A DNA stretch of 64,000 nucleotides, taken from Clostridia bacterium (GTDB taxonomy: Bacteria > Bacillota > Clostridia > Peptostreptococcales > Acidaminobacteraceae). The position numbers were made by a program, and so were the translations under genes. The DNA lies in NCBI GenBank assembly GCA_016937975.1, contig JAFGVN010000024.1:1-64000 (forward strand), in the 5' to 3' direction. The notes beneath the pieces are model-generated. The model made no database searches. It was not told where the DNA came from and saw only the letters and a list, made by a program, of their open reading frames with translations. This document shows, one piece after another, positions 24,070 through 58,303 of the stretch. Position 1 is the stretch's first letter. Each line of letters begins with the position of its first letter.

Positions 24070-24219
24070 CTCTTATCAAGAGTGGTGGAGGGACTGGCCC
24101 TGTGAAACCCGGCAACTTACTTTATAGTCAAGTGCTAAATCCTGCAGCTTATGCTGATAGATAAGGAAAAAACAATTTGTATTGCCTTGGTTATTTCTTT
24201 ATTGAAATAACCTTTTTTT
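24070..24219 (+). promoter_or_regulatory. SAM-I (S-box) riboswitch with terminator
   Basis: The aptamer spans about 24070-24165. P1 is CTTATC with GATAAG, and the S-box core GTGGTGGAGGGACTGGCCC with GTGAAACCCGGCAAC is clear. The downstream terminator GGTTATTTC (24189-24197) with GAAATAACC (24204-24212) and T7 switches transcription off when S-adenosylmethionine is abundant. The element is intact although the gene behind it is dead. Confidence 0.95.
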
Positions 24220-24310: not shown

Positions 24311-25303
24311 ATGAGTAAAAAATTGAGAACAGAAACATTATGTATTCACGGCGGTTATAAGGCATCTAATGGAGAAGCACAGGTTCTGCCTATTACACAA
24401 AGCACAACTTTTAGACATGATTCACCAGAACATTTGGCAGATTTGTTTGACCTTAAAGAATTAGGTTGGATATACAGTCGAATTGCCAATCCAACTGTAA
24501 GCCATCTGGAAGAAAAAAAAAACAAACTAGAAGGTGGTGTTGGTGCTTTGGCATTTGGTTCAGGTCAAGCAGCTGTTACAGCAACCCTTCTTACCTTATG
24601 TCAAAAGGGTGATCATGTCATAGCATCTACACATCTTTATGGTGGTACGGTGAACTTGTTTAAGACTTCCTTGAAAAGATTGGGCATTGAAGTAACTTTT
24701 GTAGAACCTACTGCAAGCTATGAAGAGATAGAAGTACAAATCAAAGAAAAAACAAAAAATATATATGGCGAAACCATAGGAAATCCCAATCTAAATGTTT
24801 AGGATTTTGAGAAGTTCTCAACCCTTGCAAAAAAGCACAACATTGCATTTGTTGTAGACAATACCTTTGCAACACCAGTGCTGTTTAAGCCCTTTGAACA
24901 TGGTGCCAATATTGTCATTCATTCAGCAACTCAATACATTGATGATAAATTTAAGATGCCTCATTCAAGGTTTTCGACCATCTTCTGGAGAGATATGGAA
25001 AAGGTCTTTGAACTGGATGTTCTTGCGGACTCATTGGAAACAGGTGCTTCAATTATTGTTAGCCGTGATCTCAAGCAAATTTTCATAGCCGGACATCCAG
25101 AATATAACCAGGAAACTTTGGCAGGAGAATATTTAAGAGATTATGAAAAGGGATTGGACCAAGAGCTTCCAAAAAACTATTATAAAGAGGATGATATTAG
25201 AAATTCAGTTGAGATGAACTGGAGAGGGCATTCTCATTTGCTCTTTGCCAATTGGATAAATTATTGTGTATACCAAATAACACCTTACAATTGGATTTTT
25301 TAG
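24311..25303 (+). pseudogene. metY-metA in-frame deletion fusion with internal stop
   Basis: The first 200 or so codons encode the N-terminal half of O-acetylhomoserine sulfhydrylase (MetY: TETLCIHGGY, FGSGQAAVTATLL, HLYGGTVNLF). An in-frame TAG at 24800-24802 replaces the Leu of the usual NPALNVLDF. The frame then continues as MetY up to HSATQYIDD, where the PLP lysine should stand but Gln is found. At about 24941-24955 it changes, in the same frame, into the C-terminal part of homoserine O-acyltransferase MetA (KMPHSRF, FIAGHPEYNQETL with His and Glu of the triad, NYCVYQITPYN). The missing DNA must have held the metY 3' half and the metA 5' half, including its catalytic Cys. No function is expected. 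Confidence 0.9.
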
Positions 25304-46468: not shown

Positions 46469-46906
46469 ATGATGATTAGAGTAGATGAAACAAATGTAAC
46501 CCTTATGGCAAAAATGGCAAAGAGCCTATGGACGGATATTGATGTAGATGAATATATTTATGACATGAAATGTGCCTTTGATGAAGGCAAAGAAATCACC
46601 TATCTCTATCAAGATGAGCAGGGAGACTACTTGGGTTTTATTCAATTGTCTTTAAGACATGATTACGTGGAAGGCAGTGAATCCTCACCAGTAGGTTATG
46701 TGGAAGGCATTTATGTAAAGGATGAACATCGAAGAAAAGGTATTGCCAGAAAACTCATAGAGTTTGCTGAAGAATGGTCAAGAGAACAGGGGTGTACTGA
46801 ACTGGCTTCTGATTGTGAACTTTCAAATACATTAAGTATTGATTTTCATAAGAATTCTGGTTTTACAGAAGCAAACCGTTTGGTATGCTTTATTAAATCA
46901 TTGTAA
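46469..46906 (+). CDS. Aminoglycoside 6'-N-acetyltransferase-like GNAT protein
   Basis: 145 residues. The blocks RHDYVEGSESSPVGYVEGIY, KDEHRRKGIARKLIEFAEEW and ELASDCELSNTLSIDFHK followed by GFTEANRLVCF closely follow chromosomal AAC(6')-I enzymes, which acetylate the 6'-amino group of kanamycin-type drugs. The acetyl-CoA loop RRKGIA is intact and the length is standard. Two adjacent ATGs (46469, 46472) follow GTGAGG. Whether it acts on drugs is unknown. Confidence 0.82.
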   Translation: MMIRVDETNVTLMAKMAKSLWTDIDVDEYIYDMKCAFDEGKEITYLYQDEQGDYLGFIQLSLRHDYVEGSESSPVGYVEGIYVKDEHRRKGIARKLIEFAEEWSREQGCTELASDCELSNTLSIDFHKNSGFTEANRLVCFIKSL

Positions 46907-46915
46907 GAGGTGTGT

Positions 46916-47416
46916 ATGTTATTTAGTTATTGTCCAAAATGTGGTGAAAAACTGGTTTTAAAATCTTTTGGTGATGAAGTAGACATTCCATATTGTGAAA
47001 TCTGCAAAAGTCCATATTTTGATTATTTTGGCCAAGCCGTTATTGTAGCTGTTTTTAATGAACATCAACAAGTGGTTTTGCTGAAGCAAAACTATGTTTC
47101 TTCTGAACATAGAGGTCTAGTTGCAGGTTACTTGAAACAAGGAACTTCAGCAGAAGAAAATGCTGTAAGAGAAGTTTTAGAAGAAACGGGTCAAGTTACT
47201 GAAAGCATACAATATGTGAAATCATACTGGCATGAGAATAAAGAGCTTTTAATGTTAGGTTTTCTTGTTCATGTCAAAAGAAGAGCGTTTAATGATTCCA
47301 AAGAGGTAGATGAAATCGATTGGTTTGAAAGGAATCATGCTTTAACACTTGTGAGAGAAGGTAGCATTGGCAAAGAACATTTAGAAAATTGTATTGCTAT
47401 TGTAAATCAAAAATAA
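46916..47416 (+). CDS. NUDIX hydrolase with N-terminal zinc ribbon
   Basis: About 166 residues. An N-terminal CPKCG and CEICK pair forms a zinc ribbon as in NADH pyrophosphatase NudC, and a NUDIX box follows (GYLKQGTSAEENAVREVLEE then TGQV), with the REVLEETG core intact. It probably cleaves a nucleoside diphosphate derivative. AAGAGG at 46905-46910 selects the ATG at 46916. It starts ten bases after the AAC(6')-like gene. Confidence 0.88.
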   Translation: MLFSYCPKCGEKLVLKSFGDEVDIPYCEICKSPYFDYFGQAVIVAVFNEHQQVVLLKQNYVSSEHRGLVAGYLKQGTSAEENAVREVLEETGQVTESIQYVKSYWHENKELLMLGFLVHVKRRAFNDSKEVDEIDWFERNHALTLVREGSIGKEHLENCIAIVNQK

Positions 47417-47489
47417 ATCCATACTAACGATTAACCTATCATATGTATGATTTAGATGAGAGTAATTTATGAGCAGGAAGGTTGGTTAT

Positions 47490-47945
47490 ATGTTTAAAGT
47501 CATAAGAAAAATGGAGGACATTGAGCATTTATCAGTGCTCATTGACATGATACAAAAGCAAATGAGTCACATCGGTGGTCAAACAGATCCTGTTCGCATA
47601 GAAGAAGCTTTAAAACGAGGTTTGTCAGATCAAACGAGAACAGTACTGTTTTTACTCACTGAAAAGGATCAGTATCAAGGTTTTTCATTCTGCAATATTT
47701 CAACTGGATTGGAATCTGGTGGTGATTATTTATGGATGAATGAACTGTATGTTCATGAGGAACATAGAAGAAAAAGCATTGGTTCTCAATTAGTTGAACA
47801 TATGGAGAGATGGTGTGAAGAAAATGAAATAAAAAATTTTCTTTGTATGACCAGTAAGGAAAACAAGGAAGCTCAAGTCTTTTATGAAAAGAAAGGGTTT
47901 GGGCTTGAAGAAGTCATATGGGTAAGTAAAGCCATTACAAAGTAA
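47490..47945 (+). CDS. GNAT family N-acetyltransferase
   Basis: About 151 residues. MNELYVHEEHRRKSIGSQLV carries the beta4 strand and acetyl-CoA pyrophosphate loop; KENKEAQVFYEKKGFG is the family C-terminal signature. Starts at 47469 and 47490 are both possible; GGAAGG upstream favours 47490. The substrate is unknown. It belongs to a run of GNAT genes at 46-56 kb. Confidence 0.85.
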   Translation: MFKVIRKMEDIEHLSVLIDMIQKQMSHIGGQTDPVRIEEALKRGLSDQTRTVLFLLTEKDQYQGFSFCNISTGLESGGDYLWMNELYVHEEHRRKSIGSQLVEHMERWCEENEIKNFLCMTSKENKEAQVFYEKKGFGLEEVIWVSKAITK

Positions 47946-47959
47946 TTGAGGAGAGATGG

Positions 47960-48427
47960 ATGATCAAGATATTAAGAACAATGGATGCAGGATTGTTAGG
48001 CATTCTGAACCATGATGTACAAGAGATTCACCATGAAATTGAACCCGGTATTTTCAAAGCCCATTCTAAGGAAGCCATGGATGCTTTGTTTCAAGAATAT
48101 TTGAAAGATGAGAATATGTCCGCTTATATTGCATATGATGATGAAATGCCTGTTGGCTATATCCTTCTTGAAATCAAACACAGCAAGGAAACCTTTTTTA
48201 AATACAGTTATAAAGCTTTAGTAATCGATCAAATATGCATTGAAGCAGCTTACAAAGGTAAAGGTTTCGGGAAAGCCCTTGTGGATTTGGCAAAGGATAT
48301 TGCCAGAGAAGAAAATATCAAGCGTATTGAAATGAATTACTGGACTGAAAACAAGGCATCGGGAGAATTTTTTAGAAGCCAAGGCTTTGAGAATTATAAT
48401 GAGAGGTTGGCCTTTACATTAAAATAA
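47960..48427 (+). CDS. GNAT family N-acetyltransferase
   Basis: 155 residues with IDQICIEAAYKGKGFGKALV (acetyl-CoA loop) and a C-terminal WTENKASGEFFRSQGFENYN signature. GAGGAGAG precedes the ATG, 14 bases after the previous GNAT gene, so the two are probably co-transcribed. The substrate is unknown. Confidence 0.88.
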   Translation: MIKILRTMDAGLLGILNHDVQEIHHEIEPGIFKAHSKEAMDALFQEYLKDENMSAYIAYDDEMPVGYILLEIKHSKETFFKYSYKALVIDQICIEAAYKGKGFGKALVDLAKDIAREENIKRIEMNYWTENKASGEFFRSQGFENYNERLAFTLK

Positions 48428-48546
48428 CGAAAGGACAGAGGTGTCTATTTCATAAAGTAGGTATATCCATATGTAAGACCTGATCTCCATGTTGAAAATA
48501 CGGTCAGCATATGACGAAAAAAAGTTTGAATGAAAAGGATCGAAGT

Positions 48547-48993
48547 ATGGAAGAAAAGAATTTTACACTAATCAAGTCATATAAACTGCTCATAGTTTGG
48601 TTTATAGGTTTTATAGTAGGTACAGTATTTTTAAGTTATGTGATGTCGCTCCTTAAAATAAGTGGAGATTATTTGGCGCTTATCTGGTTGAATCTTACCA
48701 ATTTATTTGTTATCAGTTTGTTTCAGATGATCTATAAGACAGAAAGGGTTTATTACATTAACTATGTAACTTATAAAGAAGCTTGTGAAGCAACCCGTGA
48801 AGAGCGAAAAGCCTTTGCATACAAACATATCAATGTTTTTTCTAAGGCTTCATTAATCTTTCTTATTTATTCAGCAATTTCTCTCATTGTAAAAATAAAT
48901 ATAGGTATTAATATTGGTGTTTATACGGTGCTGATTGTTGTAGCAGCCATTAGAACTGTGCCTTTTAGATTAAAGGAAAAAAATAAATATTGA
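48547..48993 (+). CDS. Four-helix membrane protein, function unknown
   Basis: About 148 residues with four hydrophobic segments in two pairs, separated by a charged middle (TYKEACEATREERKAFAYKH). AAAGGA seven bases ahead of the ATG at 48547 favours it over the ATG at 48511. I do not recognise the family; the layout recalls small DUF3021-type proteins, without certainty. Confidence 0.65.
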   Translation: MEEKNFTLIKSYKLLIVWFIGFIVGTVFLSYVMSLLKISGDYLALIWLNLTNLFVISLFQMIYKTERVYYINYVTYKEACEATREERKAFAYKHINVFSKASLIFLIYSAISLIVKINIGINIGVYTVLIVVAAIRTVPFRLKEKNKY

Positions 48994-49068
48994 AATATTC
49001 GTGATTATAGAGGGTTTAAGGGTATTTTATCATCATCAGGAACCTATTTTAAAAAAAGTGAGGTAAAA

Positions 49069-49863
49069 ATGGACTCAGATCAGATTACAATTGAGCATAA
49101 AGAAAGTTTAAAGGCCTTCATACGTCTTGAGGAAGATTTGTTTCCATCAAATTTCACGAATTATCATGAAAAGGATTTTGGTGTTTTGTTTTTTAATACT
49201 GAAAATAAAACTTCTTATGACAGTAATCATGCTATTATCTTTGAGAATAAAGTAGAACATTTAGGTGAAGTGTTAGATGAAATCACAGAATTTTACTTGC
49301 ACAAAGGGATTCATCCAAGTATATATCAATCTTTGGGAGATGAAGGTTATTTTACTGAGATGAAAGAGGTTTTTGAAAGACACGGCTATCATGTTTGGGT
49401 AGAAGAGCCTGCAAATATCATGTTGCTATGTGAAAGCAATCAATTGAAAAAGCCTTATGAAATTCAGATTAAATGTCTTGAGGAATGGGATGAGCGAATT
49501 GCAACAGACATATGCATACCCTCTAATGAAGCTTATGAAATAGATGTGATCAAAAATAATATTTTAAATCCCAATGGGCGAGTTTTTGTTGGTTATCTAA
49601 ATGAAAAAGCCGTAGTTGTAATGCATATGCATCTGTCCAAACGGGATTGTTGTCGTTATGATTATATCTTGGTCTCCAAGGCAGAAAGAAACAAAGGATA
49701 TGCCAGAGCTTTATTGTCACATGTCACAGATTACTGCAGAGTAAATGGGATTCGAAATTGTTTTCAGTGGCCTGCCCATGAAACATCGCAGCGAATCTGT
49801 TATGAGGCGGGTTTTAGACATTTGTTTACTTCAGAGATTGGTAGAGCATCATATTATAAATGA
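49069..49863 (+). CDS. Two-domain GNAT family N-acetyltransferase
   Basis: 264 residues. The N-terminal 130 residues look like a degenerate GNAT domain. The C-terminal half is a complete one (YDYILVSKAERNKGYARALL holds the acetyl-CoA loop, and the ending RICYEAGFRHLF is typical). AGTGAGG precedes the start. The substrate is unknown. Confidence 0.85.
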   Translation: MDSDQITIEHKESLKAFIRLEEDLFPSNFTNYHEKDFGVLFFNTENKTSYDSNHAIIFENKVEHLGEVLDEITEFYLHKGIHPSIYQSLGDEGYFTEMKEVFERHGYHVWVEEPANIMLLCESNQLKKPYEIQIKCLEEWDERIATDICIPSNEAYEIDVIKNNILNPNGRVFVGYLNEKAVVVMHMHLSKRDCCRYDYILVSKAERNKGYARALLSHVTDYCRVNGIRNCFQWPAHETSQRICYEAGFRHLFTSEIGRASYYK

Positions 49864-49888
49864 TAAAGAAAATAGACAAGGGAGCGTT

Positions 49889-49996
49889 ATGAAATTAGCA
49901 TTTTGGATTTGTGTAGGTATTGCCATATTTGGTGGTGAGTTAGTTTTTAAGCGTCGTAAAAAAGATGGGCATAAAAAAGACAAAAATGATCATTAG
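49889..49996 (+). CDS. 35-residue single-helix membrane protein
   Basis: The sequence begins MKLAFWICVGIAIFGGELVF and ends in a run of Lys, Arg, Asp and His. AAGGGAG lies six bases before the ATG. It is located between two clear genes with short gaps on each side, in the same direction. A small regulatory or stabilising membrane peptide is possible; no family is recognised. Confidence 0.55.
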   Translation: MKLAFWICVGIAIFGGELVFKRRKKDGHKKDKNDH

Positions 49997-50011
49997 TATT
50001 GTGAGGTAATT

Positions 50012-50641
50012 ATGAAAATATATGATATAACCAAAACCCTTAACGAAGATATTGCAGTATGGCCTGGGGATCAAAAGTTTCAAAGAGAAAGTGAATCCTT
50101 TGAACTCCAGGGGAATATATGGCATGCCAGTCGATTGTCGATGAGTTTACATACAGGTACACATTTAGATGCACATTATCATTATGATGAAAAGGGAAAA
50201 ACCATAGATCAACATGATTTATCCAGATATGTTGGTAAATGCCAAGTGATTGATGTCAGTCAACGTCGTGATAAGACCATTTCTTTAAATGAAATTTCCT
50301 GTGAGATTGTTGCGAAGCGTGTATTGTTTAAAACCAGTAGAAGTGTTGATGCAAAAATATGGGAAGATGATTTTAGAGGTTTTTCCCCTGAACTCATTCA
50401 TTTTCTTCATGAGAAAAAAGTAGAACTCATTGGTATAGACAGTTTCAGTGTAGATCCTTATGGAGAAGAAATGCCCGTACATCTTTTGTTGGGACCGTAT
50501 GATATTTATAACATTGAAGGTTTAAACTTAAATGAAGTAGAAGAAGGTCTATACACATTAATGGCTTTACCTCTAAAACTTGAAGGTGCAGATGGTAGTC
50601 CTGTAAGAGCCATCTTAATTGAGGGTGATCTTGAATCATAA
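50012..50641 (+). CDS. Cyclase family protein, kynurenine-formamidase-like
   Basis: 209 residues of the cyclase/KynB family. The metal-binding HTGTHLDAHYH motif is intact (Pro of the usual HxGTHxDxPxH is Ala here), as is the IGIDSFSVDP block. Members hydrolyse N-formylkynurenine or cyclic amides. No tryptophan-catabolism genes are near, so the substrate is unknown. TGAGG precedes the ATG, 15 bases after the small membrane gene. Confidence 0.85.
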   Translation: MKIYDITKTLNEDIAVWPGDQKFQRESESFELQGNIWHASRLSMSLHTGTHLDAHYHYDEKGKTIDQHDLSRYVGKCQVIDVSQRRDKTISLNEISCEIVAKRVLFKTSRSVDAKIWEDDFRGFSPELIHFLHEKKVELIGIDSFSVDPYGEEMPVHLLLGPYDIYNIEGLNLNEVEEGLYTLMALPLKLEGADGSPVRAILIEGDLES

Positions 50642-50689
50642 TAAGCTTCGAAAGATGTTTTTCTTAAAAAGAGACCCAAAAGTATATAA

Positions 50690-50722
50690 AAAGCATGAGT
50701 GTAAAAAACTCATGCTTTGTTA
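50690..50722. terminator. Bidirectional terminator
   Basis: AAAGCATGAGT (50690-50700) pairs with ACTCATGCTTT (50708-50718), an 11-bp stem between the cyclase gene and the reverse-strand ArsC-like gene, with T-rich sequence leaving it in both directions. Confidence 0.85.
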
Positions 50723-50728
50723 TTTGAG

Positions 50729-51079
50729 TTAGAGAAGTTTTTCTTCCCAATCCTTTAATTTGAATCCTGATAAAACGAAGTTGTCACCAATTAGAACAGG
50801 TCTCTTATGAAACATACCATCACTTTCAAGGATCGAAAGCAACTCATCCTCTGAAAGACTATTCCAACGTTCTTTCAAGTTATTTTCCTTGTACAAACGG
50901 CCATTGGTGTTAAAGAATTTGACCAGTTCTAAACCACTCATAGCCATCCATGCTTTTACTTCTTCTGCTTTTGGGTTGTCTTTATGAATTAACCTTAACT
51001 CATAATTAATTTGATTGTCATCAAGCCAATCCTTGGCTTTTCTACTGGTGGTTCACGATGGGTAATGTAATAAAATCAT
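50729..51079 (-). CDS. Probable selenoprotein of the ArsC/Spx family (TGA-encoded Sec9)
   Basis: Read from an ATG at 51079 (reverse strand, AAAGGAG seven bases before it), the frame gives MILLHYPS, then TGA at 51055-51053, then TTSRKAKDWLDDNQINYEL and on through a complete ArsC/Spx-type domain (GLELVKFFNTNG, KRPVLIGDNFVLSGFK) of 116 residues. The TGA stands exactly where the redox-active Cys of the CxxS/CxxSRKA motif belongs. The hairpin AAGCCAA-GGA-TTGGCTT lies 13 bases after the TGA, with its G-starting loop 20 bases from it, within the known bacterial SECIS geometry. The shorter frame from 50947 has no ribosome-binding site and lacks the active site. The alternative is a Cys-to-stop nonsense mutation. 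Sec machinery is not in this window. Confidence 0.72.
51023..51039 (-). promoter_or_regulatory. Candidate bacterial SECIS element
   Basis: Seven base pairs (AAGCCAA with TTGGCTT) closed by the loop GGA, on the mRNA of the ArsC-like gene, 13 bases after the UGA. A short apical loop beginning with G, 16-37 bases from the UGA, is the published general pattern for bacterial SECIS elements. The same bases code for KAKDWL, so chance pairing is possible. Confidence 0.55.
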
Positions 51080-51181
51080 CTTGTACTCCTTTCAAACCTG
51101 TTAATGTATTCATACCATTATCTTACATAAATAAACAGGGACTGTCTAGGAATATCTTGAATTAATACAGTTTTGTATTAA

Positions 51182-51748
51182 TTATAATTGATTTGACATC
51201 CTATAGGCTTTGATAAATCCTTTATAGACTTCATGACTGAAATTAAAACCTAATGCTTCATAGAACTTACCAACGATCTCATTACCATTGGCAACATATA
51301 CCCAAAGGTCTTCTGCATCCTTTTGTGATCTTAACCATGTCATGGCCTCCTCTGCAAGCTGTTTGCCAATATTATGACTTCGATATTTTTCGTCAACAAT
51401 TAAGAGTCTAAAAGTACCTACAATTTTTGGCATATCATAATCAACAGGATAGAAGCCAATACCACCTAAAGATTCTGCCCAAGCTGCCTTATGATCGGCT
51501 ACTGCCTTTGTCACTGTAGTGACAATGGAAAAAGCAAATCCGATGGGAGTATTTTCATCATATGCAACAAGCATATGCTTTCTTTTCGTATTAGCATATT
51601 CTGGTTTTAAGCGATTCTCATAATTCATACTTTTCATGACATCTTGTCTAATGGTAGCTCTTTCACCTTGAAAAGTCATAAGTTGATTGCACAAGTCTGC
51701 CAAGAAATCAATGTTGTCGCCTTCATAGATTTTGAGCTTAATTTTCAT
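51182..51748 (-). CDS. GNAT family N-acetyltransferase
   Basis: 188 residues. RLLIVDEKYRSHNIGKQLAE contains the beta4 strand and a YRSHNIGKQL acetyl-CoA loop; NEIVGKFYEALGFNFSHEVY is the C-terminal signature. It lies divergent from the LysR gene at 51857, so it may be that regulator's target. The substrate is unknown. Confidence 0.85.
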   Translation of the reverse strand: MKIKLKIYEGDNIDFLADLCNQLMTFQGERATIRQDVMKSMNYENRLKPEYANTKRKHMLVAYDENTPIGFAFSIVTTVTKAVADHKAAWAESLGGIGFYPVDYDMPKIVGTFRLLIVDEKYRSHNIGKQLAEEAMTWLRSQKDAEDLWVYVANGNEIVGKFYEALGFNFSHEVYKGFIKAYRMSNQL

Positions 51749-51856
51749 AGTTTTTTCCTTTCAATACAAAATATATGGACTCTCATAATATAATTATATG
51801 AATAATATTGAGAATAATCCAATTGTTAGTTACAATATTTATCATAGGAGATACCT

Positions 51857-52765
51857 ATGAATGGAGGCATTATGGAAATTCGTGAAATCATTCATGTCAG
51901 ATGCGTTGCAACGTTTCAAAACATCACAAAGGCTGCAGAGTTTCTTCACATCACACAACCCTCACTATCACAAAGTATTAAGTTGATAGAAAAAAAGCTT
52001 CAGTTGTCACTGTTTCATAGAAGTAAGAAGGGGATGACTTTAACAGAAGAAGGTAGGGCATTTGTAAGGGATTCAGAACCTTTGATTCAAGCCTACGAAA
52101 TGTTTCTCTCTAAAATCAACCAATACAATCTATCAGAGCAGTATCATATCGGCTTATTTAAGTTATCTTATACAACTGCGATTAACGATGGGGTGATGAA
52201 CTTTATATCTGAACATAGTGATGACAATTATATGATTAAAGTAGAAAGCATTGATGATTTGGAAAAAATGCTTTTAGGAAATCAATTGGATGTTGCGATT
52301 GTCAAGTATACACCTATTTACAAAAGAAACCCGAAACTCCATTATGAGATGCTTTTTAAAGAACCTTTGTATTGTATATTAAGTAGTACTCATCCATTAA
52401 GTTCTGAAAAGATAATTGATGCGAAATCACTTTCAGGCAATGCCTTAATTACAAGTGCACCTTCGGAATATCCCTATAAGATGACAGAACATATTTTAAA
52501 GGAAGCGGGCATAACTTTGGAAATCCATACCATGACGAATTACTACAATTTGGCCATGATTTTAGATTTGGTGGAAAAAAACATGGGGGTTGGTTTTGCT
52601 TCTGAAAAGATATGTCAGCATTTTAAAAGACCAGGGATTCGAAGTATTCCTTTAAGTATAAGTTACGATTATGAGGTTTGTATCGTCACCAATCCAAACC
52701 AAAAGACTTCTGTAAAGATTCTTGAATTCATAGAATACCTAAAGGAATATGTTGCTTCCAATTAA
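51857..52765 (+). CDS. LysR-family transcriptional regulator
   Basis: About 302 residues: an N-terminal winged helix-turn-helix (NITKAAEFLHITQPSLSQSI, KLQLSLFHRSKKGMTLTEEG) and a periplasmic-binding-like effector domain (about 95-300). Two ATGs, 51857 and 51872, each have a ribosome-binding site; MEIREIIH at 51872 is the usual LysR start. It is divergent from a GNAT gene. In the gap, ATTG-N9-CAAT at 51807-51823 has the T-N11-A form of a LysR site. Confidence 0.9.
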   Translation: MNGGIMEIREIIHVRCVATFQNITKAAEFLHITQPSLSQSIKLIEKKLQLSLFHRSKKGMTLTEEGRAFVRDSEPLIQAYEMFLSKINQYNLSEQYHIGLFKLSYTTAINDGVMNFISEHSDDNYMIKVESIDDLEKMLLGNQLDVAIVKYTPIYKRNPKLHYEMLFKEPLYCILSSTHPLSSEKIIDAKSLSGNALITSAPSEYPYKMTEHILKEAGITLEIHTMTNYYNLAMILDLVEKNMGVGFASEKICQHFKRPGIRSIPLSISYDYEVCIVTNPNQKTSVKILEFIEYLKEYVASN

Positions 52766-52797
52766 AATGAAAAGATCCTATTCATGATCTTTTCATT
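52766..52797. terminator. Terminator-like hairpin between convergent genes
   Basis: AATGAAAAGATC (52766-52777) pairs with GATCTTTTCATT (52786-52797), a 12-bp stem between the LysR gene and the reverse-strand GGDEF gene. The T tail is poor on the plus strand. Confidence 0.6.
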
Positions 52798-52835
52798 GGT
52801 TATGTTCGGATTGAGTTTTAGCTGCTCAAATACAT

Positions 52836-54396
52836 TTAGTTGGATTCAGGTTGAAAAACACAGACTCTGTTCCTGCCCTTATTTTTAGCTTGATACATCG
52901 CTGCATCAGCTTCATCAATTATTTGTACTAATGCTCCTTGAGTAGATGTAATTTCAGAAAGTCCAATGCTGATGGTCATGTCTTTTAAATAACCGAGACT
53001 TGAGTTTTCCACCAATGCTCTTATTTTTTCAGCGATTTGTTCTGCCTGTGTTAATGCTGTGTGGGAGAGCAAAATAATAAATTCCTCTCCTCCCCATCGT
53101 GCAAAAATATCTGATTTTCTCACATTTTGAGAAACCAATTGAGCAAGCTGTTTTAATGCATGATCTCCTGCATCGTGTCCATGGGTGTCATTGATTCTTT
53201 TAAAAAAGTCGATATCAAACAACATGATGCTGCCAGGATAGTCATATCGTTCCATACGTTTAAGCTCTTTTTCAGCAAGTTCAAAAAATGTGGCGGTTGT
53301 AGATTTGTGTGAGAAAATCAATGTGTGCAATATTTTGTATTTTGGATTGATAAAAGGAAATCGCCCAACCAAAAGTAATGATAGAAATTGTAAATACTGT
53401 AAAGAAAATAATTTGCTTTATATATCCTTTAACAATATCTGCATGTTCGTCAGTGCCAAGAAAAGTAATTAAATAGGCAACTGGTTGACCTACAATATTG
53501 TTGATGGTGAGAAATTTGACGATATAATTTTCGCCGTTATATTGACAATTAATGACAAAATTCTCATTGTTGTTGATTTGTTCTTCATATTGATCCTTGA
53601 TTTTAGAAAAAAAACTTTGACTGTCAAAATCTTTTAAATAAGTGGTATTGTCAATAATTTCTGTTACTTCTCTGTCGAAGTAATAGTTTTCTGAAATGTA
53701 GGAATCCGTGTAGTTTGAGATTTCCTCTTCGAAAACATTGTCTTGAACTTCTGATTTTTTAATGATAAATTTAAAATTCTGTGCTGGATACAAGTCGGAC
53801 AAAATCTCTAAAATGGAAGCTGTCGAGATAGAAACTTCAGCAGTTCCAATGAGTTCGTTGTTATCATGCAAAGGATATACAAAGCGATAGCCATTAAAAA
53901 TTCTACCTTCCTCAAAACCGGATACATATGAGTCCGTTTCATTGGCAATTTTTATACTATCTCTAATATCATATAGGAGATCACCATAAGTATCTAGACG
54001 GTGCATTCTCAAGAAACTTTCGGTATTAGCCAATTGAAAATGTAATTGTCTGAATTTGTATTTTGTCATATGTTCATATTTAACGATGAGATAATCGTAT
54101 AGTTCTTGACGGAGTATTTTTTTCTCTTCATCGGATGCTGTTGCAGCTTCTCGGATATGAGATAAAATATATGAATCTGATTTTATATCATCAAAAATAT
54201 AATTGGAGAATGACTCATAAGTTTTTAAAATAGATTCAATCTTACCTTTAAAATTAGATAATTCCAAATCAAAATAAGAGGATTCAGTTTCCTTGAAGTT
54301 CAAATGTGATGTCCATGTCATCAAACCCCAGAGGACTATTATGATGATGGTATAAGTTGTCCAAAAGATATATTTTCGATTCATAGCTTTTTTCAT
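52836..54396 (-). pseudogene. Membrane diguanylate cyclase broken by a +1 frameshift
   Basis: The first frame (54396 to 53281, 371 residues) has two membrane helices around a large extracellular sensor region and enters the GGDEF domain with IAHIDFLTQIYNRHIF before a TGA. The second frame resumes as FELAEKELKRMERYDYPGSI and continues through a full GGDEF domain (RWGGEEFIILL, with an intact RKSD inhibitory site) to 52836. The join lies in a run of six A at 53283-53288 on the plus strand. Removing one base gives a continuous 519-residue protein. It is a real frameshift, an assembly or sequencing error, or less likely slippage. Confidence 0.88.
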
Positions 54397-54585
54397 GAGT
54401 AAATCTCCTTAGTGTTCTATAAATATACCCTTATTATTGCGATTCAACCATTTTACAGGGATTGGGCTGGATAGATGCTTTTAGAATGATTCTGTCATGG
54501 GATAAGTTTAGAATTGTTTAATTCAAAATTTGACTACCATTTACGTTCTATTTTGCTAAGATGAAAATAAAGAGAAAGGATCTTT

Positions 54586-55107
54586 ATGTTTATAGAAAAG
54601 AATGACTTAATTATAAGAAATGCAACAGAAGAAGATGCTTGCCAACTGATGCAATGGTGGAATGATGGAAAGATTATGGCACATGCAGGTTATCCGAAGG
54701 GCTTAAATATTACAAAAGAAAAAATCGTATCAGACCTTGCAGAGGATTCAGACGATACGAGAAGACGATTGATTATTGAATATAAGAAACAGTCGATTGG
54801 AGAAATGTCTTATCGTAACTTAGGCCAAGGAAGTGTAGAAATAGGGATTAAAATATGTGTGGAAGTATTAAGAGAAAAGGGTTTAGGAACACAGATTCTT
54901 AAACTGTTCATTCAAGATTTATTTGAAACCTATCTCTATGAAAAAATTGTTTTGGATACAAACTTAGAAAATAAAAGAGCACAACATGTTTATGAAAAAT
55001 TAGGTTTTAAAAAAGTGAGAGTCAACTATAATGCTTTTAAAAATCAAATGGGAGAAGTTCAGTCATCTGTAGATTATGAATTATTAAAGGGTGAATGGCA
55101 TGTATGA
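54586..55107 (+). CDS. GNAT family N-acetyltransferase, RimJ/RimL-like
   Basis: 173 residues. IGIKICVEVLREKGLGTQIL holds the acetyl-CoA loop, and DTNLENKRAQHVYEKLGFKK the C-terminal signature. The fold is that of the GNAT_3 group, which acetylates protein N-termini or antibiotics. GAAAGGA precedes the ATG. It overlaps the next GNAT gene by 17 bases. Confidence 0.87.
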   Translation: MFIEKNDLIIRNATEEDACQLMQWWNDGKIMAHAGYPKGLNITKEKIVSDLAEDSDDTRRRLIIEYKKQSIGEMSYRNLGQGSVEIGIKICVEVLREKGLGTQILKLFIQDLFETYLYEKIVLDTNLENKRAQHVYEKLGFKKVRVNYNAFKNQMGEVQSSVDYELLKGEWHV

Positions 55108-55633
55108 TTTAGTTTTAGTAAAACCCAGTGAAGTCAGTCCTGAACAAATTAATGAATATATTAAATCTTTCTTGGAGAAGGGTGAAAATCACATAAACGG
55201 GACCAGCGGTTTATTGAGATATGATGATTTAAGTGAATGGTTAGATATGATTTCAAAAAAGGAAATCGACACAATTAATGATGAGATCACTGCCAGTACT
55301 TATTTCACTTTGAGAAAATCGGATCAAAAAATTATAGGATCTATTCAATTGCGTCATCATTTAGACGATGAACTAAAAGAGCATGGTGGACATATTGGCT
55401 ATGGGATTTCACCCCTTGAAAGAAATAAAGGGTATGGCAAGGAACAATTAAGACTGGTTTTGGAAAAAGCGAGTGAAAGAAAAATACCTAAGGTTTTAAT
55501 CACTTGTAGAAAAGATAATCAAGCATCTAAAAGAACAGCGATCAGTTGTGGCGGTGTGTTTCTTAAAGAAACTATTTACGAAGGTGTAGAACAGTTGCAT
55601 TTCATCATACAGTTAAGTGAATCCAAAAGATGA
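55091..55633 (+). CDS. GNAT family N-acetyltransferase
   Basis: 180 residues. HIGYGISPLERNKGYGKEQL contains the acetyl-CoA loop; CRKDNQASKRTAISCGGVFL is the C-terminal signature. Starts within the preceding GNAT gene (at 55091 or the ATG at 55100, with AAGGGTG upstream), so the two are coupled. The substrate is unknown. Confidence 0.87.
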   Translation: MNGMYDLVLVKPSEVSPEQINEYIKSFLEKGENHINGTSGLLRYDDLSEWLDMISKKEIDTINDEITASTYFTLRKSDQKIIGSIQLRHHLDDELKEHGGHIGYGISPLERNKGYGKEQLRLVLEKASERKIPKVLITCRKDNQASKRTAISCGGVFLKETIYEGVEQLHFIIQLSESKR

Positions 55634-56433: not shown

Positions 56434-56515
56434 CTCTAATGAAACGGCAAACTTATCGTAAGGTAAGGACGCAAAGCTAAAGGGTCTTAATGAGACAGCC
56501 AGTTACCAAATGGGG
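56434..56515 (+). promoter_or_regulatory. c-di-GMP-I riboswitch aptamer (GEMM-I)
   Basis: The conserved pieces of the class I aptamer appear in order: ACGGCAAAC, a short hairpin, GGACGCAAAGC, a second hairpin GTCTTAATGAGAC and AGCCAGTTACC. It is the only such aptamer in the window. It lies just past a strong promoter and ahead of an attenuator. Confidence 0.85.
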
Positions 56516-56809: not shown

Positions 56810-58303
56810 ATGAATATAGAAATTAACAGAGAAAGTAAAACACATGTATATCTTCAAGTGATGCATGCCATTAAGAATGCCATTATTAAAAATGAAGTCG
56901 TTTCAGGGTATAAGCTGCCACCAGAAAGAAAATTGGCGGATACTTTAGGCGTCCACAGAAACACCATTATTAAAGCATATAAAATGCTTGTAGATGAAGG
57001 TTATGTGGCAATATCCAAACAACCTAAAGGCTACTTTGTTTCTTATGGTGCAAGTCACAATCCTTTAAAAGGACATTACCTTTCTGCACATTTTCAACCC
57101 TTTGAATATATCGTTAAAGATGAATTCTTACATATGAATGCGTTGTTTAGTCGTTTGTTTCATACTTCCATTTCAAAGAAGATGATTTCATTTGCAACAG
57201 CTATGCCTTCATCATCTATGTATCCCATTCAAATTCTAAATCATCTCACTCAAGCTCTTCTTGAAAATAATAATAATGAGATCTATGGGTACAGTCACCC
57301 CCAAGGTGACTTAGGTCTTAGAGAAGCCATCTCCAAATATCTTGAAAAACAACATATTCTTACGTCACCATCAGAAATCACCATTTGTTCTGAAACCTAT
57401 CAGGCTATGGATTATCTTGTGAAATTAGTCGTTTCCCATGGTGAAACTGTCATATTGGAAGAACCTGTTAATCCTGATTTGTTTGATTTGTTGACCTTGT
57501 TGGGCGCAAAGGTCGTGACAATACCCCTCGATCATGATGGGATGATTGTAAACTGCTTAGAAAATTTGATTCTGAAATATAAACCTAAATTTATTTTAAC
57601 CATACCAACTTTTCATAATCCTTCCATGACGATTTTATCTCTAGATCGAAGAAGGGAATTACTGAAATTATCTTATCAGTATAATGTACCTATTGTAGAA
57701 ATCAATCATGATTCGAGCCTTCGTTATTCAGGAGATGCTGTACCTTCATTGAAATCAATGGATACAATGGGTACTGTGATCTACATTGATTCCTTTATTT
57801 TTAAAATAGCACCAGGCATCAAAGTGGCATATTTGGTTTCTTCCAAAAGCATTGCTAAAAAACTAAGTAAAATGGTTGAAATCAACCAAATCTTTTTTAA
57901 TACACTCACACAGAAAATCATAGCGAAGTACTTGAATGATCATTACATATATGCCCATGAAAAGGTTCTGAGGGATTTCTATTATGAGAAACAACAATTA
58001 ACAGCCCTTTATTTAAAAACATTATGTCAAGACTATTTGGACTTTACGATACCCAATGGCGGTGTGAGTATTTGGTGCAAACTAAAAGTTAAAGTGAACC
58101 AGGACATACTCTTGTTAAAGGCCGAAGAAAGTGGGATTTCTTTTGCACCAGGACATTTGTTTTATCCTTATGGCAATGAAGGAGATGATTATTTGAGAAT
58201 CAGTTATAGTGTCTGTACAGAAAATGAAATCAAAACTGGCATTGAGAAATTGAGTCAAGTGTTCAAATCTGTTTTGGAAAGAGGAGAAAATCATGAGCAT
58301 TAA
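56810..58303 (+). CDS. MocR-type GntR regulator with degenerate aminotransferase domain
   Basis: 497 residues: a GntR winged helix-turn-helix (about 10-75, LPPERKLADTLGVHRNTIIK) and a class I aminotransferase-like domain. Two PLP-binding positions look changed. The YIGTFSK-type motif reads YIDSFIFK (325-332), placing Phe331 where the Schiff-base Lys is expected, with a Lys one residue later. The usual EDDYD reads EINHD (297-301), putting Asn299 at the ring-nitrogen Asp. It may therefore not bind PLP. GGGG precedes the ATG. It overlaps the LD-carboxypeptidase gene by 11 bases. Confidence 0.85.
   Translation: MNIEINRESKTHVYLQVMHAIKNAIIKNEVVSGYKLPPERKLADTLGVHRNTIIKAYKMLVDEGYVAISKQPKGYFVSYGASHNPLKGHYLSAHFQPFEYIVKDEFLHMNALFSRLFHTSISKKMISFATAMPSSSMYPIQILNHLTQALLENNNNEIYGYSHPQGDLGLREAISKYLEKQHILTSPSEITICSETYQAMDYLVKLVVSHGETVILEEPVNPDLFDLLTLLGAKVVTIPLDHDGMIVNCLENLILKYKPKFILTIPTFHNPSMTILSLDRRRELLKLSYQYNVPIVEINHDSSLRYSGDAVPSLKSMDTMGTVIYIDSFIFKIAPGIKVAYLVSSKSIAKKLSKMVEINQIFFNTLTQKIIAKYLNDHYIYAHEKVLRDFYYEKQQLTALYLKTLCQDYLDFTIPNGGVSIWCKLKVKVNQDILLLKAEESGISFAPGHLFYPYGNEGDDYLRISYSVCTENEIKTGIEKLSQVFKSVLERGENHEH

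Follow-up and report, generated by a model that had tools for sequence, protein, structure and literature searches.

The window, meaning the whole stretch of 64,000 nucleotides analysed here, contains on its reverse strand a frame of 116 codons whose sole internal stop is a TGA at codon 9. The first-pass annotation had described this frame as opened by a well-placed ATG with a ribosome-binding site, and the layout is confirmed in the sequence. With the TGA read as a residue, the product begins MILLHYPS-U-TTSRKAKDWL. The features of the locus are the following:

50729..51079, reverse strand: predicted selenoprotein coding frame, 116 residues and TAA, with selenocysteine (Sec) at position 9 in the motif UTTS
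51090-51086, reverse strand: Shine-Dalgarno-like AGGAG, six bases ahead of the ATG, read directly from the sequence
51079-51077, reverse strand: start codon ATG, read from the sequence
51055-51053, reverse strand: in-frame TGA, predicted Sec codon 9, matched in the alignment by TGA in 33 further fetched loci and by TGT or TGC in 80
51023..51039, reverse strand: SECIS-like hairpin from RNAfold, with a 7-bp stem and a GGA loop 20 nt past the TGA
50731-50729, reverse strand: stop TAA, the end of the 116-codon frame
50690..50718, no strand assigned: terminator-like inverted repeat between the selenoprotein gene and a convergent cyclase gene, flagged for the forward strand only

A mechanical ORF call on this gene returns the tail alone, 72 aa from the ATG at 50947, as had been anticipated for simple gene callers. 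Elsewhere in the window TGA is an ordinary stop, ending 14 of the 56 ORFs of at least 150 aa; the genetic code is therefore not altered globally, and a general recoding of TGA was ruled out on this ground. The terminator scan found one element at 50690..50718, compared with a mean of 0.2 (sd 0.5) in shuffled sequence, and the repeat may have a role for the reverse-strand selenoprotein gene. The promoter scan gave no signal: its 3 sites compare with 2.6 in shuffled sequence.

A GNAT acetyltransferase gene stands upstream, also on the reverse strand, and the cyclase gene converges on the predicted selenoprotein gene. No conserved gene neighbourhood was found, the three closest relatives having different neighbours; at one homologue locus (L032) a rhodanese/disulfide-reductase gene is located upstream in the same orientation, and this is taken as a hint only. 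The surrounding region, 46469-55633, holds seven GNAT acetyltransferase genes in about 9 kb, together with APH, NUDIX and HD genes that are interspersed with or adjacent to them. Further along the forward strand, a c-di-GMP-I riboswitch (56436-56510, 67.2 bits) is located 299 bases ahead of 56810-58303, a 497-aa gene that appears by eye to encode a GntR/aminotransferase (MocR-type) regulator. A SAM riboswitch (24070-24167, forward strand, 83.7 bits) is followed at 24311-25303 on the same strand by what appear by eye to be two O-acetylhomoserine sulfhydrylase-like fragments of 163 and 141 aa, possibly a decayed gene under an intact riboswitch.

Codon 9 in relatives and the selenium machinery

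The gene was matched in 92 of 198 related genomes, and in 194 of 393 genomes of the order, a set that overlaps the first. From these, 114 loci (113 distinct places) were fetched, including every TGA match among the matches listed. A single in-frame TGA is present in 34 of the 114, always aligned to codon 9, and the remaining 80 carry a cysteine codon at that position (TGT in 36, TGC in 44). No second in-frame TGA occurs within residues 1-113 in any of the fetched loci. The recurrence of the same TGA at one codon in 34 loci places the observation far beyond chance. The alignment proposed earlier as a check thus returns only Cys codons or TGA at codon 9, in agreement with the claim that the TGA occupies the redox Cys position of the ArsC/Spx family. 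The three closest relatives, 73-77% identical and belonging one each to the same genus, family and order, are all TGA genes with no further stop within the match; the additional lesions in related strains that the first-pass annotation had named as evidence against Sec are absent from them.

The four components of the Sec machinery that were to be sought in the genome are all present. A tRNA-Sec with anticodon tca is called by both ARAGORN and Rfam (70 bits against a gathering score of 47), and selA, selB and selD score 616, 387 and 403 bits, each over the cut-off. All four lie on one contig (C128), and the TGA gene lies on another (C93), in an assembly of 153 contigs that is 98.7% complete with 4.6% contamination; in one relative (G002), selA and the TGA gene are about 16 kb apart on a single contig. 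Among 14 control genomes, the model cut-offs were passed for tRNA-Sec in 5, for selA in 1, and for selB and selD in 2 each. Furthermore, the selD and grdA genes of the same genome, both members of known selenoprotein families, each contain one in-frame TGA (L061 1531-1533, forward strand, and L135 1821-1819, reverse strand, respectively).

Across the homologue set, a selA match was obtained in 33 of the 34 TGA genomes and in 31 of the 46 Cys genomes tested (Fisher p 0.0013, with relatedness not corrected). Over the curated cut-off these counts become 30 of 34 and 30 of 46. The search in one TGA genome (G345), which is 82% complete, gave no selA match, and in three further TGA genomes the matches are partial and under the cut-off.

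The hairpin downstream of the UGA

Bacterial selenoprotein genes carry a short hairpin just past the UGA, with a G early in the apical loop. In the window gene, RNAfold reproduces the hairpin that had been noticed from the sequence, with arms at 51039-51033 and 51029-51023 enclosing the loop GGA at 51032-51030; it thus has a stem of 7 bp and a loop that begins with G and starts 20 nt after the UGA. All seven of these pairs are present when the 45 nt beginning at the TGA are folded optimally. Taken singly, this hairpin beats chance only modestly: its z is -1.67 relative to dinucleotide shuffles, 10 of 200 of which fold equally well, and synonymous recoding gives p 0.03. Scanned against Rfam at gathering scores, the window yields two riboswitches and no match at the hairpin. 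A simple fold test is no sure guide here, because the stretches after the TGA of selD and grdA likewise show no strong hairpin when folded simply (z 0.13 and 1.52).

Across the loci, a single rule was used to score hairpins: a perfect stem of at least 4 bp, a loop of 3-10 nt that has G at its first or second place, and a distance of 12-30 nt between the codon and the start of the loop. Under this rule the best energy averages -5.9 kcal/mol in the 34 TGA loci vs -1.1 in the 80 Cys loci (Mann-Whitney p 2e-16, relatedness not corrected), and synonymous recoding of the same peptides leads to expected means of -1.1 and -1.0, respectively. Counted without correction for relatedness, the recoding test gives p < 0.05 in 25 of the TGA loci and in 8 of the Cys loci, and p < 0.01 in 19 and 0, respectively. 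The pairs of the stem were also counted one at a time, again without that correction. Among 32 distinct TGA sequences, each of the five middle pairs is retained in 30-32, and those at the two ends in 19 and 23. Among 78 distinct Cys sequences, retention is 69-75 for three middle pairs, 36 and 56 for the remaining two, and 25 and 17 for the pairs at the ends. This partial conservation in Cys loci indicates that much of the stem follows from the coding sequence. The difference between TGA and Cys loci lies in the pairs that hang on codon choice; the Ala codon 15, for example, is GCC in 27 of 34 TGA loci vs 12 of 80 Cys loci.

If presence of the hairpin is defined as at least five of its seven pairs in the optimal fold of the 45 nt starting at codon 9, 20 of the 34 TGA loci have it, the window gene included, as do 18 of the 80 Cys loci. 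The other 14 TGA loci prefer a different fold, often a rival structure on the same near-palindrome. One of them, L066, can be set beside the TGT locus L086 from a congeneric genome (mean column identity 93%): the change from GCC to GCA, which keeps the Ala, shifts the named stem from -6.0 to +0.3 kcal/mol, and both loci share another best fold, at -9.2 and -5.6 kcal/mol, respectively. The two form a near-clean natural Sec/Cys pair in which the alternative best fold is common to both. Given these limits of the hairpin evidence, the case for Sec rests on the codon and the machinery first and on the hairpin second.

Two other readings of the TGA have to be considered against these data. If it were a nonsense mutation, in a pseudogene or through a sequencing error, at most the tail from the internal ATG would be made, which is what a plain reading of the code yields; however, 34 fetched loci from separate genomes share the TGA at this codon, no other in-frame TGA occurs across the homologous stretch, and the TGA is associated with a better hairpin, all of which speaks against decay. 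The sharing of the TGA by 34 loci rules this explanation out, and the probability left to it is negligible. A UCA tRNA charged with Cys is known elsewhere, and decoding of the UGA as Cys in this way, or some other read-through without selenium, would agree with Cys being the only alternative residue at codon 9 in the 114 loci. Yet the tRNA of this genome is identified as tRNA-Sec by two programs, selA, selB and selD accompany it, and TGA genes retain the SelB-type hairpin better than their Cys counterparts do, so that incorporation without selenium is very improbable.

Insertion of Sec at the UGA of codon 9 in the window gene is very probable, as predicted from the sequence. The Sec inference of the first-pass annotation is thus borne out by the machinery, by the survey of codon 9, and by the better preservation of the hairpin in TGA genes. 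In the proposed mechanism, SelB would bring Sec-tRNA to the UGA, guided by the hairpin just downstream, and the ribosome would then read on through to residue 116.

Fold, active site and likely function

The claim that the rest of an ArsC/Spx protein follows the TGA holds for the read-through product, which matches the Pfam ArsC family PF03960 at 50.1 bits (cut-off 24). It is best placed in TIGR01617 (ArsC-related, Spx/MgsR family), at 83.1 bits against a cut-off of 75.05. The more specific models remain below their cut-offs: TIGR00014, for glutaredoxin-dependent arsenate reductase, gives 40.9 bits against 106.05; three Spx-specific models give 33-45 against 123-159; and NF041106 (ArsC_rel_Se_1) gives 14.7 against 85. 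The AlphaFold2 model of the product has a mean pLDDT of 97.1, with residue 9 directly before helix 1. The nearest solved fold is 3gkx (TM 0.92, 46% identical), with Spx and ArsC next.

A true arsenate reductase, with Sec replacing Cys12, is what the ArsC fold and Pfam family would suggest. In E. coli ArsC, the residues beside Cys12 that bind arsenate are presumably Arg60, Arg94 and Arg107. Arg94 aligns with Arg in 113 of the 114 loci, but Asn takes the place of Arg60 in 113 and Phe that of Arg107 in 107; this substitution pattern, the score under the TIGR00014 cut-off, and the lack of any ars gene among the 12 annotated window neighbours make such an enzyme improbable. The arsenate reductase function implied by the ArsC name is not supported by the active-site residues, and arsenate is an unlikely substrate of the window protein. 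A Sec-bearing regulator of the Spx/MgsR type, binding the RNA polymerase alpha subunit and sensing redox state, would be in line with the TIGR01617 assignment and with a fold close to Spx (TM 0.86-0.87). We take Gly52 of Spx to be its contact to the RNA polymerase alpha C-terminal domain, and CxxC to be its redox switch. Gly52 aligns with Glu51 of the window protein and the second switch Cys with Ser12, which, together with the low scores of the Spx-specific models, argues against this role; it is unlikely, although somewhat less so than arsenate reduction. Judged by the aligned residues, neither of the two named functions is supported.

With two of the three ArsC arginines and the Spx glycine missing, the window protein is read as an oxidoreductase that works with one selenol. 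Sec9, just before helix 1, would take the place of the family's nucleophilic Cys and attack an oxidised substrate, and an outside thiol or redoxin would resolve the resulting selenyl-sulfide. In the motif UTTS a Ser stands where the usual CxxC has its second Cys, which makes a one-selenol cycle likely. On balance, a one-selenol oxidoreductase resolved by an outside thiol is the probable function, held with moderate confidence.

Exchange of Sec and Cys, and comparison with known selenoproteins

A tree of 112 rows implies 13 changes of the Sec/Cys label, no fewer than 7 of which are required by well supported branches; when the columns that code for the motif and the hairpin are dropped, the total stays at 13 and no fewer than 4 are required. 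The clade of the window gene (L031-L034) forms one side of a 100/100 branch. The trees were built on 117 and 103 columns and leave many forks open, and the bootstrap of the first had not fully converged. The count of switches is therefore approximate, but that several took place is clear. At the fourth motif place, 11 of the 34 Sec rows are UxxC, and Cys is absent at +3 in 23 of 34 Sec rows vs 12 of 78 Cys rows. These raw counts are suggestive of a link between loss of the second Cys and the change from Cys to Sec; the link was dropped after independent pairs on the tree gave a median p of 1 and no support. The repeated exchanges, foremost the pair L066/L086, constitute a natural experiment on the effect of a Sec-to-Cys swap.

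A bolder possibility is that the TIGR01617 branch in this order forms an unlisted selenoprotein group with many Sec/Cys exchanges (13 on the best tree), of which some members, the UxxS clade of the window included, would be selenium-bearing redox regulators, tying selenium supply to a transcriptional or adaptor response, and not enzymes. As a whole, this proposal is improbable.

Sec-containing proteins of the ArsC family have been in print since 2005, and the window protein adds a member. The Sargasso Sea study of 2005 describes a Sec-containing arsenate reductase with UxxS (COG1393 / pfam03960, 14 sequences) and, for each of its new families, reports a stem-loop following the UGA (PMC1088965); ArsC-like selenoproteins were listed in 2006 (PMC1794560); and the 2008 GOS study sets UxxS "ArsC 1" beside UxxC "Arsenate reductase 2", cd03032 (PMC2398784). 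Both forms appear in two reviews (PMC9312934, PMC13188914), the second of which, from 2026, puts the UxxS arsenate reductase selenoprotein under TIGR00014 and the UxxC arsenate reductase-like selenoprotein under NF041106. That review, the one searched for the term TIGR01617, does not use it in its main text, and no mention of ArsC or arsenate reductase was found in the accessible part of PMC5029168. The literature search found no paper joining selenoprotein to ArsC and Spx, to Spx and MgsR, to Peptostreptococcaceae, or to arsenate reductase, SECIS and Firmicutes. The selenoprotein branch of TIGR01617 may not have been listed apart so far.

The window protein shares its superfamily, Sec at the catalytic Cys and the motif UxxS with the UxxS ArsC selenoproteins. 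Unlike those listed under TIGR00014, it fits TIGR01617 instead, and it is without Arg60 and Arg107 of ArsC. The UxxC forms (NF041106 / cd03032) belong to the same superfamily and have Sec at the same place, whereas the window protein has Ser and not Cys at the fourth place and fails NF041106. Its nearest fold by structure, 3gkx from Bacteroides fragilis (besides which 3fz4 and 2m46 are of the same kind), scores 114 bits by sequence; it is a Cys protein (CSTC) entitled "putative ArsC-family related protein", a title that names no tested function. Spx (1z3e, 3gfk) has the same fold and is 22% identical, but its Gly52 and second switch Cys are missing from the window protein at the aligned places. 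What is added to these known systems is a firmly predicted selenoprotein that plain ORF calling trims to its tail. Because both an arsenate reductase and a transcription regulator are built on this fold, identifying the substrate of the window protein would tell what selenium contributes to it.
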